DNA from: a virus
Strand: one strand, 5' to 3'
Virus record (IMG/VR): IMGVR_UViG_3300046820_001233
Location: 1 to 40,221 of that record
DNA length: 40,221 nucleotides
The notes beneath the pieces are model-generated. The model saw only the letters and a list, made by a program, of their open reading frames with translations. It was not told the origin of the DNA and made no database searches. Position 1 is the first letter of the stretch. Every line of letters starts with the position of its first letter. The translations under genes were made by a program, and so were the position numbers. This document shows positions 24,163 to 34,045 of the stretch, one piece after another.

Positions 24163-24882
24163 TTACCAGTAATTAATGTTTTTCTTAAAGTAATCTATGT
24201 TATCACGGTTTATGAAACTTCTTATTAATAGAGTGACCATGAACATATACCCCATTTTTTTAAACCTCCTATCATCCTGACCAATATAATGATTAGAGAT
24301 TTTAAATTTATCCGGGTGGAATTCTTTACTTAATAGATAATCCTCAGAATGTTCCACCTCCTCATTAAACATCCCATACATTATAAAGAGATTTGTTTTG
24401 GTCATGAAATATGTACCCACCGCGAATGGAGTGAATTTAGAGATTACCTTATTAACCACATTAAAGACATTAAACGCAATCCTTGTCCTTATATCTTTAC
24501 CATAGGATTTAACCTTGGATGTTAATAAATCCAAATCCTCGGTTTCCATCTCCATTAAGGTTTCATATATATGATTGGGATTGGATAGTTTAACATCACC
24601 ATCAAGGAACAGGATGTATTCGGTATTGGTTATCTTTGCACCATTATTCCTACCCCTACTTACATTACCACCATCAATTAGAATAATATTAATCTTATCC
24701 TTATGGTTTTCCTTATATTGGTTTACAATAGTTCTGGTATTATCGGTTGAATGATTATCAGATACAATTACCTTAGTCTTATTAATATGGTTTTGATTGA
24801 TAATATCATTGAGAACACCCGCGATGTAGTTTTCCTCGTTATATGTGGGAATTACTATGGTCAGTTTTTCATTTATGTTCAT
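24163..24882 (-). CDS. Family 2 glycosyltransferase (239 aa)
   Basis: A GT-A fold glycosyltransferase. LTIVIPTYNEENYI (residues 7-20) is the nucleotide-binding start, VSDNHSTDNT the second loop, and FLDGDV (Asp94, Asp96) the metal-binding DxD motif. No membrane helix is obvious except a hydrophobic C-terminal patch. GT2 enzymes move a sugar from an activated donor to glycan, lipid or teichoic-type acceptors. It overlaps the phosphoesterase gene by 14 nt, so the two are expressed together, pointing to envelope-lipid or LPS modification. Donor and acceptor cannot be told. Confidence 0.85.
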   Translation of the reverse strand: MNINEKLTIVIPTYNEENYIAGVLNDIINQNHINKTKVIVSDNHSTDNTRTIVNQYKENHKDKINIILIDGGNVSRGRNNGAKITNTEYILFLDGDVKLSNPNHIYETLMEMETEDLDLLTSKVKSYGKDIRTRIAFNVFNVVNKVISKFTPFAVGTYFMTKTNLFIMYGMFNEEVEHSEDYLLSKEFHPDKFKISNHYIGQDDRRFKKMGYMFMVTLLIRSFINRDNIDYFKKNINYW

Positions 24883-30375: not shown

Positions 30376-30960
30376 TTATTCTTCGATGAATAGGTTGTTT
30401 AAATATTTGTACATTGGATAATACTCATGCCCTGGATAATCAACAATTTCTCCACGAAGACCCAATGCTTTGGTGAACTCAAGATTTTCTTTTTTATACA
30501 TTTCATACATACGACTACCTGTCATCTTTGAATATTGTACATTGGCAATTCGGTCACATAGTTTAACAAAGACAGCACCGGGTGTATTTCTAATACCCTC
30601 ATAGTATTTGTCATTGGCACGTTCCTTACGGTTCTTACCTTTTTCGTTGGTTACCGCATAAACAATGTCCGCAACTTCCTGACCTAAATGGTCTTTCACA
30701 TCATTATATGAAACACGACAGTCCTCAATCAAATCATGACCCCAACAAGATAACATACACGCATGACGTAAAGAAACCTGAGTAACCGGATTAACAATTT
30801 GGTCACCAGTATAATATTCCACACCACTCTCAAGTAAGTGAGCATATTTTTGACCAACATGATGAACCATTCTTAAATGAAATTCATAAGGAAGATACGT
30901 ATCGTACATATGATTTGTCTCATTATGTTTCTCGATACACCAATTTGATTTACTATTCAT
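30376..30960 (-). CDS. MESH1/SpoT-like HD hydrolase (194 aa)
   Basis: An HD-superfamily phosphohydrolase of the small alarmone hydrolase type. His34/His66 region, WGHDLIEDC (His75-Asp76, Glu79-Asp80), VTNEKGKNR and KLCDRIANV (Asp136-Arg137) follow the SpoT/MESH1 order, and no synthetase domain is attached. Such enzymes remove pyrophosphate from (p)ppGpp or act on related nucleotides with Mn2+. In a phage this could keep host growth and transcription going by degrading the stringent alarmone (inference). It is the first gene after its own promoter. Confidence 0.8.
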   Translation of the reverse strand: MNSKSNWCIEKHNETNHMYDTYLPYEFHLRMVHHVGQKYAHLLESGVEYYTGDQIVNPVTQVSLRHACMLSCWGHDLIEDCRVSYNDVKDHLGQEVADIVYAVTNEKGKNRKERANDKYYEGIRNTPGAVFVKLCDRIANVQYSKMTGSRMYEMYKKENLEFTKALGLRGEIVDYPGHEYYPMYKYLNNLFIEE

Positions 30961-30975
30961 ATCCTATCTTTTAAA

Positions 30976-31007
30976 CAAAGATAAGAATATAATTAGAATA
31001 TTCCAAA
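30976..31007 (-). promoter_or_regulatory. Promoter for the HD hydrolase operon
   Basis: Minus strand: TTTGG at 31007-31003, spacer 19, TATCTTTG at 30983-30976. A GAATATTC palindrome follows the -33 box. Confidence 0.85.
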
Positions 31008-31023
31008 TTTTATTGGGGAAATT

Positions 31024-31188
31024 TTAATTAAATTTACCTAACGATTCGTTTATACGACTAAGACGTTCATTCATCTTAATAAGACTTTCGTTATATCTTT
31101 CCATGGTTTTACATAAAAGTTCCATAGAAATTTGTAGATTAACTAATGGGTCGGTGTAACCATTTAATAATTTAAATTCATTTACCAT
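31024..31188 (-). CDS. FKLLNG-tagged coiled-coil protein (54 aa)
   Basis: MVNEFKLLNG (start 31188) is followed by heptad-patterned helix (LQISMELLCKTMERYNESLI, then KMNERLSRINESLGKFN). The start resembles the FKLLRG tag of the 22.8-24.1 kb cluster. It overlaps the RmlC-like gene by 11 nt. A start two codons earlier (MQM) is possible. Function unknown; a coiled-coil oligomer is likely. Confidence 0.6.
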   Translation of the reverse strand: MVNEFKLLNGYTDPLVNLQISMELLCKTMERYNESLIKMNERLSRINESLGKFN

Positions 31189-31639
31189 TTGCATCTTTTT
31201 CAGATAAGACAACTTCATTTATTCCCGCATAACTTGAAACCACGTGAAATACTTCTTCATTTTTCCACCAAAGTATTGAGTGTTCACTTTCAGGATTATA
31301 TTCTCCTTTCGACATATAAACAACAATGGTATTTGGTACTAACGTTAAAAAACCGTGAGCCTTATTATTCGGTACAAACACGGCAGAATTTTCGTCCATA
31401 ATTAGATATTCCGTTTCACCTGTTTCCAAGTCAACCATGAAATCGATTATCTTCCCTTTAATAACTTTAACGTACTTTGTTTGATATGGATTTGTTTGAT
31501 AGTGGAGTCCCCTAAATGTATATTCCATATCATTAACCGATATAGAACATTGGTCCCATTCCATCCCTAAGACATTGGTTGGGATTGGTGTATATGAACC
31601 TCTATTATCTCTAAATGTTTTATGTTCAATCTTTTCCAT
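31178..31639 (-). CDS. RmlC-like cupin, dTDP-sugar epimerase family (153 aa)
   Basis: FRGLHYQ (Arg43, His46), VKVIKGKIIDFMVDL, PNNKAHGF (His95), and YNPESEH (Tyr114) follow the order of dTDP-4-dehydrorhamnose 3,5-epimerase. At 153 residues it is shorter than the usual 180 or so. The WxND-type aspartate of the family reads as KNEE here (around residue 127), so catalysis may differ or be lost. If active it would change sugar stereochemistry for glycan building; no other rhamnose gene is in the window. Confidence 0.75.
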   Translation of the reverse strand: MEKIEHKTFRDNRGSYTPIPTNVLGMEWDQCSISVNDMEYTFRGLHYQTNPYQTKYVKVIKGKIIDFMVDLETGETEYLIMDENSAVFVPNNKAHGFLTLVPNTIVVYMSKGEYNPESEHSILWWKNEEVFHVVSSYAGINEVVLSEKDANGK

Positions 31640-32152: not shown

Positions 32153-32914
32153 TTACAATAATTTAAAGTTGTCAGCGTCTTTTAAAAATGGATACTGACT
32201 TCTATAACTATCTAAGTTTTCTTTATCTATTGAACAGGTATTGGTCCAATGAGTTTCAGATAACTTCATTAAAACAATCCCTGACGGGTTAATCACCATT
32301 GAGCGTCCATTATATCTCAATCCGTTCCCATCTTCCCCAATTCTGTTTACCCCAATAACATAAGATTGATTTTCTATCGCCCTTGCTTGTAATAGATTAA
32401 CCCACGTTTCACTTCTAACTGATGGCCAGTTTGCAACATAAAGTAAGATATCATAATCACCGGTATTTCTTGAGAACACAGGGAATCTTAAATCATAACA
32501 AATTTGTGGACAGATTCTAAATCCTTTGTACTCGATTATGATTCTTTCTGTACCCGGTGTGTAGTTTACATCTTCACCAGCATAAGAAAAAAGATGTTTC
32601 TTATCGTAGTGTTTAATTGTCCCATCAGGTTCTACCCAAATGAATCTGTTATAGTACTTACCATCTTCTTCAATGATAATGGAACCACAGATTGCGGCGT
32701 TTGATTTAATCGACATAAGTGACATCCACGCAACAGTTTCCCCATCCATAGTTTCGGATAGGTTTTGTGGTTTCATGGTGAAACCTGTAGTAAACATTTC
32801 GGGTAAAATAATGAGGTCAGTGTTAACTAGTTCCTCAATTTGAAAGTGAAGGTTATTTCGGTTATATATTTTGTTTTCCCACTCAAGGTCTGTTTGAAGT
32901 AATGTGACGTTCAT
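32153..32914 (-). CDS. Nitrilase-superfamily omega-amidase-like hydrolase (253 aa)
   Basis: Catalytic triad in place: Glu39 (LPEMF), Lys106 (YDKKHLF) and Cys139 (ICYDLRFP). FTTGF and NWPSVRSE blocks match the omega-amidase (YafV/Nit2) branch, which hydrolyses alpha-keto-glutaramate and -succinamate. Start at 32914 chosen by the MNVTLLQTD family start. The last residues are NFKLL, the same word as the FKLLR tag. A phage nitrilase might salvage amides or metabolise glutamine; role inferred only. Confidence 0.85.
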   Translation of the reverse strand: MNVTLLQTDLEWENKIYNRNNLHFQIEELVNTDLIILPEMFTTGFTMKPQNLSETMDGETVAWMSLMSIKSNAAICGSIIIEEDGKYYNRFIWVEPDGTIKHYDKKHLFSYAGEDVNYTPGTERIIIEYKGFRICPQICYDLRFPVFSRNTGDYDILLYVANWPSVRSETWVNLLQARAIENQSYVIGVNRIGEDGNGLRYNGRSMVINPSGIVLMKLSETHWTNTCSIDKENLDSYRSQYPFLKDADNFKLL

Positions 32915-32926
32915 GTATAAAATATA

Positions 32927-32934
32927 CAAAATTA
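32927..32934 (-). promoter_or_regulatory. Possible weak promoter for the nitrilase gene
   Basis: -7-like TAATTTTG (minus) 12 nt upstream of the ATG; no good -33 match at the right distance. Confidence 0.3.
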
Positions 32935-33272: not shown

Positions 33273-33398
33273 TAGTCAGGACAGGAATCGAACCTGTAAT
33301 TAATCTGTTTCGTTAGTGCGTTTGCAGAATAACTATTCTAATTAATCCCCACCTTTCGGCTGTTATCTGGGTAACGTCTACCATTCCGCCACCTGACC
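33273..33398 (-). tRNA. Atypical tRNA-like gene, anticodon unassigned
   Basis: Minus strand. A 7-bp acceptor (GGTCAGG/CCTGACT, first pair G-U), a GCGGAATGGTAGACG D-arm as in Leu-type tRNAs, and a T-arm ACAGG-TTCGATT-CCTGT are all clean. The middle is about 40 nt longer than in class II tRNAs, and no anticodon loop can be set with confidence. CCA is not encoded. It follows directly after the structured RNA's terminator. It may be a tRNA with an insertion, a decayed tRNA or a tRNA-like element. Confidence 0.65.
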
Positions 33399-33400
33399 AT

Positions 33401-33447
33401 AAAAAAAGGTTCTGAATCATCCCTGTACCAACCCAGGAGAACCTTTT
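33401..33447 (-). terminator. Terminator of the structured RNA
   Basis: Minus strand AAAAGGTTCT and AGAACCTTTT form a long stem with inner CCTG/CAGG, followed by seven Ts. Confidence 0.8.
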
Positions 33448-34009
33448 AGTTTTATATAGTATTTGGTATCGTATATATCCCACACCGTTATAACTAAGAT
33501 TCGTTAGTCCGTAGTAACCATCCCCGGTGGGTTTCTACTTTCACACTCCGTCCAAACTTACTTACCTAATCAAGTGTGTCATAGGTGTTTCAGAATGGCG
33601 TTCAGTGCTATCCTCAGAACATCTTCACCCTACCCCCAAAGTTACGTGGTGAGTCTCACTCGGAAGAAGAGTGTGTATCGTAAGATTGTTCAGTATTCTT
33701 ACGACTTGTGGATTACAACACGACTAATTAAAGCCCCTTACCCCCTCAATCCATAATGGGGAACTCTATTTTTAAGATTCCAACATACCTGACGGAACTT
33801 CCCCTGCGTCAGTGAATCTCGCTTATTGGAGATTATATGAATTTCACTCTTTGTGTATCCTCCCCCATAGCCTTGAAGACTTCAAGTCAGGTTCACACAC
33901 CATAACGGACGAGTACCTCCGTTAATCGTGGGGTCTAAAAGTGGAGTGTGACGTATGCTCGTCCTATAGTCGTTTCCGTCCGCGGACTCACGGTTCTCTC
34001 CACTAATCT
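33401..34009 (-). ncRNA. Large structured non-coding RNA candidate (about 610 nt)
   Basis: Minus strand. No long reading frame; local inverted repeats include CTTGAAG/CTTCAAG, CTGACG/CGTCAG, CGTAAGA/TCTTACG and AACGGA/TCCGTT. The base composition is richer in G and C than its neighbours. A promoter at 34014-34045 and a hairpin plus T tract at 33401-33447 bound it. Size, position beside a tRNA and location in a phage recall GOLLD or ROOL giant RNAs, which cannot be confirmed without covariance models. GAGAACC near the 5' end can pair with GGTTCTC at 33436-33442. Confidence 0.7.
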
Positions 34010-34013
34010 TTTA

Positions 34014-34045
34014 CAAGTATAAGGAATAATTTTGAATATTCCAAA
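34014..34045 (-). promoter_or_regulatory. Promoter for the structured RNA
   Basis: Minus strand: TTTGG at 34045-34041, GAATATTC after it, spacer 19, TATACTTG at 34021-34014 (one mismatch to TAnnTTTG). Confidence 0.75.

Follow-up and report, generated by a model that had tools for sequence, protein, structure and literature searches.

The window, the whole stretch of DNA analysed here, is a complete IMG/VR record of 40,221 bp that is AT-rich and carries numerous small phage genes. The following features of its minus strand concern the present analysis:

34014 to 34045, minus strand: promoter, consisting of TTTGG (from 34045), a spacer and TATACTTG (34021-34014), of the phage's own recurrent type and kept in the relative G001
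33402 to 34008, minus strand: entire gene of a probable structured non-coding RNA of about 600 nt, 5' end approximate, supported by homologs on 68 other viral contigs and by covariation
33401 to 33446, minus strand: terminator-like 3' hairpin with T-run, supported by compensatory changes across homologs
33273 to 33398, minus strand: tRNA-like element matching the Rfam tRNA model at 34.6 bits, 3 nt after the T-run
32153 to 32929, minus strand: carbon-nitrogen hydrolase gene
31178 to 31639, minus strand: sugar epimerase-like gene
30376 to 30960, minus strand: HD-type hydrolase gene
24163 to 24882, minus strand: glycosyltransferase gene

The last four are genes of host-metabolism type that lie near the RNA. 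The promoter motif (TTTG, about 19-21 nt, TAnnTTTG) is repeated before many genes of the window record, a second copy at 30966-31014 being found by BLAST alone. It is a motif that we take to be similar to the known Bacteroidetes promoter, and the host of the window phage is therefore probably a Bacteroidetes bacterium. Promoters of this style across the record could help to predict transcription units as well as the host.

The initial annotation had described a non-coding stretch of about 600 bp, dense in hairpins, lying between its own promoter and terminator and directly followed by a tRNA-like gene on the same strand. This description is confirmed, with one correction. The promoter is of the type found before many genes of the record, and the terminator is a hairpin (33446-33405) followed by the T-run, whose pairing is taken as real because compensatory changes maintain it across homologs. 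The non-coding stretch runs on the minus strand from about 34008 to 33402, and the profile match to it spans 34017-33401. No sense ORF of 30 or more codons occurs in 16 of the 49 near-complete homologs, the longest ORFs reach 71 aa, and a coding gene was rejected in the absence of any reading frame common to the family. Hairpin density, by contrast, failed as a distinguishing mark: the folding energy of the minus strand is -167.3 kcal/mol, and its shuffles reach -165.0 (z = -0.33). Minimum free energy, not being significant for this strand, was dropped as evidence of structure; the plus strand deviates more from its own shuffles (z = -3.25). The structure is established by comparison across homologs and not by folding energy. 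Within the helices tested, G.U cells outnumber A.C cells by 194 to 39, which makes it likely that the minus strand is the RNA. The tRNA-like element at 33398-33273 is recognized by the Rfam model, whereas a canonical cloverleaf with a 7-nt anticodon loop is not found: ARAGORN does not accept it as a tRNA, and its predicted fold has an intact acceptor and T arm with no normal anticodon arm.

Homologs were sought with DNA patterns, BLAST and a nucleotide profile, and were found on 68 other IMG/VR contigs of up to 304 kb, at E values of 1e-18 or better and with identity down to about 60%; this count includes G001, and L073 and L100 are counted as one contig. Seven further homologs came from a search with a 17-nt pattern drawn from conserved sequence, and three more patterns together with the profile brought the total to 68 contigs; five pattern matches (L022 and L029-L032) were dismissed as chance. 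The relative G001 (IMGVR 3300020172_002301) was reached via the neighbouring carbon-nitrogen hydrolase gene. It has the promoter, RNA and tRNA in the order of the window, and its RNA is 88% identical, with a stretch of more than 100 nt unchanged; when both are folded to a consensus, two-sided changes preserve eleven pairs and none is broken. The length of the RNA across the family is about 410-620 nt. In BLAST searches, neither the window RNA nor three homologs matched any phage record, and one homolog compared with plasmid records had no match either. A scan of genome contigs with one pattern gave two chance matches in unrelated DNA, and, the pattern having been taken from the optional 5' domain, this result does not speak to absence from prophages.

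Four domains, separated in part by variable segments, were aligned blind with MAFFT, and helices were then read from those alignments. On the window they lie as follows:

33938 to 34008, minus strand: 5' domain, closed by stem P1 (AGUGGAG/CUCCACU) and containing a further stem, GUCC/GGAC, and a GAAA tetraloop; an optional module
33852 to 33936, minus strand: 5' core domain, GACCCCAC ... UAUGGGGGAGG.UACAC, supported by covariation
33766 to 33851, minus strand: insert between the 5' core and the middle domain, varying from very short to about 95 nt
33612 to 33775, minus strand: middle domain of five helices with the near-invariant loops UUAUGG, UUAA.U, GUAACU and CUGAGG, supported by covariation
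33551 to 33596, minus strand: hypervariable linker that follows CACTGAACGC and ranges among homologs from 0 to about 50 nt
33398 to 33546, minus strand: 3' domain, comprising a long stem around the invariant GGAUGGUUACUA, an inner hairpin, the 3' hairpin and a pseudoknot, supported by covariation and a covariance model
33463 to 33468, minus strand: UACCAA, the upstream strand of the pseudoknot, pairing with the 3' hairpin loop UUGGUA (33431-33426); five of the six pairs covary

Compensatory changes were found at 49 of the 88 pairs tested over the four domains, the pseudoknot included. In the P1 domain, whose motif occurs in 16 loci including the window and is missing from many other homologs, two-sided changes occur at 6 of 13 pairs and 98.8% of cells are paired; the 5' core has them at 7 of 17 pairs. 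The middle domain has 12 of 26, with 96.3% of cells paired and a covariation of 0.269, compared with 0.158 in shuffles. The strongest figures come from the 3' domain (41 sequences), in which two-sided changes occur at 24 of 32 pairs, 88.9% of cells are paired and the unpaired stretches, GGAUGGUUACUA among them, hardly vary. Its long stem occurs as CCACCG/CGGUG, CUUCGG/CCGAAG, CCCCGA/UCGGGG and CUACCU/AGGUAG, and the upstream strand of its pseudoknot lies about 35 nt from the 3' hairpin loop. Covariation in this domain is 0.568, compared with 0.223 in shuffles (0/500) and at most 0.135 with the partner strand slid; the shuffle controls ignore phylogeny, and the choice of helices is partly offset by the slid-partner controls and by matches to held-out sequences. 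Because the helices had been picked from their own alignments, a covariance model of the 3' domain, R1, was built and applied to loci outside it: six held-out homologs score 86-133 bits, the next best match 14 bits and the window 144.5 bits. The family thus has two variable inserts, the one between the 5' core and the middle domain and the one following CACUGAACGC, which measures 0 to about 50 nt.

The carriers are tRNA-rich phages with promoters of Bacteroidetes-like appearance. Of 40 loci that have 1 kb of flank on either side, 23 had a same-strand ARAGORN tRNA within 300 nt, often at 1-5 nt, and every nearest tRNA listed is on the strand of the RNA. What adjoins the RNA varies by contig, with Ser, Ile, Asp, Phe, Thr, Pro, Met and Glu tRNAs or ORFs all represented. 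The window and several other loci have a promoter immediately upstream of the RNA; elsewhere the RNA is set between two tRNAs, beginning a few nucleotides after the first and stopping 2-5 nt short of the second, and in one subgroup it begins 13-14 nt past the stop codon of a small ORF. Copies of this ORF, which encodes a small protein, are present at L078:9381-9743 and L033:5823-6188 and in L058, L054 and L072, the L078 copy being without a PHROG match. In G002 (60900-61176; L010, L014, L018), three tandem promoter-like copies about 90-140 nt apart lie beside tRNA genes, which suggests a row of short transcripts.

The tRNA-like element downstream of the RNA is 36 nt longer in the window than in the relative. 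Such elements are also found just downstream of the RNA in L025, L028, L023, L047, L056 and L063. They retain the acceptor (GGUCAGG or AGUCAGG...) and the T arm, differ widely in their middles and have no normal anticodon arm; they may be decoys, signals for processing or tRNAs that carry inserts.

The initial annotation had left open whether the RNA was GOLLD, ROOL or a new class, and had proposed a scan with the Rfam models for GOLLD, ROOL, OLE and HEARO, followed by a covariation analysis. With the scan run, none of the four matches the RNA; with covariation strong in all four domains, the new-class branch of the proposal is the one supported. Rfam 15 finds only the tRNA and chance-level matches (E above 1) in the window stretch, and in ten homolog loci no family overlaps the RNA at E up to 5. 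With E values of up to 10 allowed, the OLE and HEARO models still leave the window without a match. The families of a 2017 survey of 224 candidate RNAs, which reportedly introduced ROOL, were covered through Rfam, and searches of part of the open-access literature gave no earlier description of the RNA. Freshwater-1 RNA (RF02979) gives a near-threshold match at L043:996-1056 (61.9 bits against a cut-off of 72), within a tRNA array that also contains the new RNA. A relative of the window phage (155 kb contig) carries a GOLLD RNA at L004:390-1314, scored at 270 bits; upstream of it lie a tRNA-Met and other tRNA-like stretches.

RF02032 models the conserved 3' region of GOLLD. One could ask whether the RNA is a GOLLD, or the 5' region of one, so divergent that the Rfam model overlooks it. 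The niche, phages and adjoining tRNAs, is identical, the carbon-nitrogen hydrolase gene next to the window RNA has a counterpart about 5 kb from the GOLLD of a relative of the window phage, and the GOLLD 5' region is poorly conserved (PMC12286853). This reading is nevertheless largely refuted, and its residual probability is very slight. GOLLD and the new RNA are found together as separate genes in 28 of 50 RNA-carrying records, a lower bound since most contigs are fragments; in every such case they are on the same strand, 3.3-28 kb apart and never overlapping. GOLLDs score 270-340 bits with the model, those of the 28 records 300-340 bits, and the new RNA has no match to it, while the profile of the RNA misses the GOLLD region of the relative and R1 finds nothing significant there. 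A very divergent ROOL is likewise improbable. The size agrees (the ROOL model has 574 positions), as does the tRNA neighbourhood, and the two variable inserts resemble the disordered linker of ROOL (PMC12286853); yet the model is silent on the window record (E up to 10) and on all 50 RNA-carrying records (E up to 1), scores 130 bits on the known ROOL of pMP118 as a positive control, and R1 does not match that ROOL. That both models miss the RNA while their controls succeed supports a new class. By computation it is shown to be a separate, covarying RNA on the same strand as the neighbouring tRNAs, is neither GOLLD nor ROOL by covariance models, and often occurs beside GOLLD. The window feature is very probably the gene of a large structured non-coding RNA whose family is not represented in Rfam 15.

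Two further readings concern what such an RNA does. It could be an element in cis that does not act in trans, serving tRNA or small-protein transcripts as a processing spacer or a 3'-UTR, and its distance of a mere 1-5 nt from tRNAs in many loci would suit this, as would the subgroup in which a small ORF stops just before it. Against such a role, the RNA stays constant while the neighbouring tRNAs and ORFs differ between contigs, four covarying domains and long invariant loops go far beyond the needs of a spacer, and the window and some homologs supply a promoter of its own; a cis element is given a low, though not negligible, probability. It is unlikely that the RNA is a ribozyme or mobile intron-like element inserted among tRNA genes. 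The family is large, ornate and pseudoknotted, occupies several positions in tRNA arrays and has very highly conserved unpaired stretches, but models of group I, group II, HEARO and other ribozymes are all without a match, no long internal ORF for an endonuclease or reverse transcriptase is present, and the RNA is located outside genes, with a promoter and terminator in the window.

From the place, size class and style that the RNA shares with GOLLD and ROOL, a stable structural RNA, produced together with the phage tRNAs and acting in trans, is inferred; its identity as a new family taken together with such a role, cage formation set aside, is considered likely. The RNA would be transcribed during infection, in the window between a promoter and a terminator that belong to it. 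At other loci it would be included in a tRNA transcript and probably be freed by the tRNA-processing enzymes RNase P and RNase Z. The folded RNA might then act in trans in the takeover of translation by the phage, through tRNA supply or ribosomes; that it acts in trans and in connection with phage tRNAs or translation has about an even chance of being correct. The variable inserts would be tolerated linkers. GOLLD is a 14-mer RNA nanocage. Together with ROOL it belongs to the phage-encoded RNA nanocages found near tRNAs (PMC12286853). By analogy, the new RNA may also self-assemble into a homo-oligomer or cage, a suggestion that is rather doubtful at this point, and the same tentative standing attaches to a third independent self-assembling giant RNA family in phage tRNA arrays, with two assemblies in one phage. 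A second self-assembling RNA beside GOLLD, if true, would point to a shared function, either in supplying tRNAs or in controlling ribosomes.

Few known natural assemblies made of RNA alone are as large as GOLLD and ROOL, and the present RNA would add a third giant family in the phage tRNA neighbourhood. The presence of an unrelated third RNA in GOLLD phages makes the question of why giant RNAs reside in phage tRNA regions a comparative and testable one, open to analysis by co-occurrence, swapping and double knockouts. A widespread family of large RNAs has been missing from Rfam, and with an alignment and covariance model ready it offers a new target for structural biology.

With its complex covarying structure, its pseudoknot and its lack of a shared coding frame, the RNA resembles large ornate phage RNAs in general. 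Among known systems, OLE and HEARO are also large structured RNAs, of bacteria; the partners of OLE are cellular membrane proteins and that of HEARO is an endonuclease ORF, neither of which is seen at this locus. The lncRNAs of Staphylococcus phage K are abundant and lie beside tRNA genes (PMC9241854), the comparison with them consisting of the negative blastn of the phage collection. ROOL (RF03087) is an ornate RNA of about 500-660 nt with pseudoknots and a poorly conserved linker, found in phages and prophages near tRNA islands (PMC12286853); the new RNA shares a size near 580 nt and the phage tRNA neighbourhood, without a match to RF03087. GOLLD (RF02032) differs in being a separate gene, in exceeding 800 nt for many members as against about 410-620 nt, and in its other conserved sequences and helices, but it is like the new RNA a giant ornate phage RNA near same-strand tRNAs, often in the very same phages.
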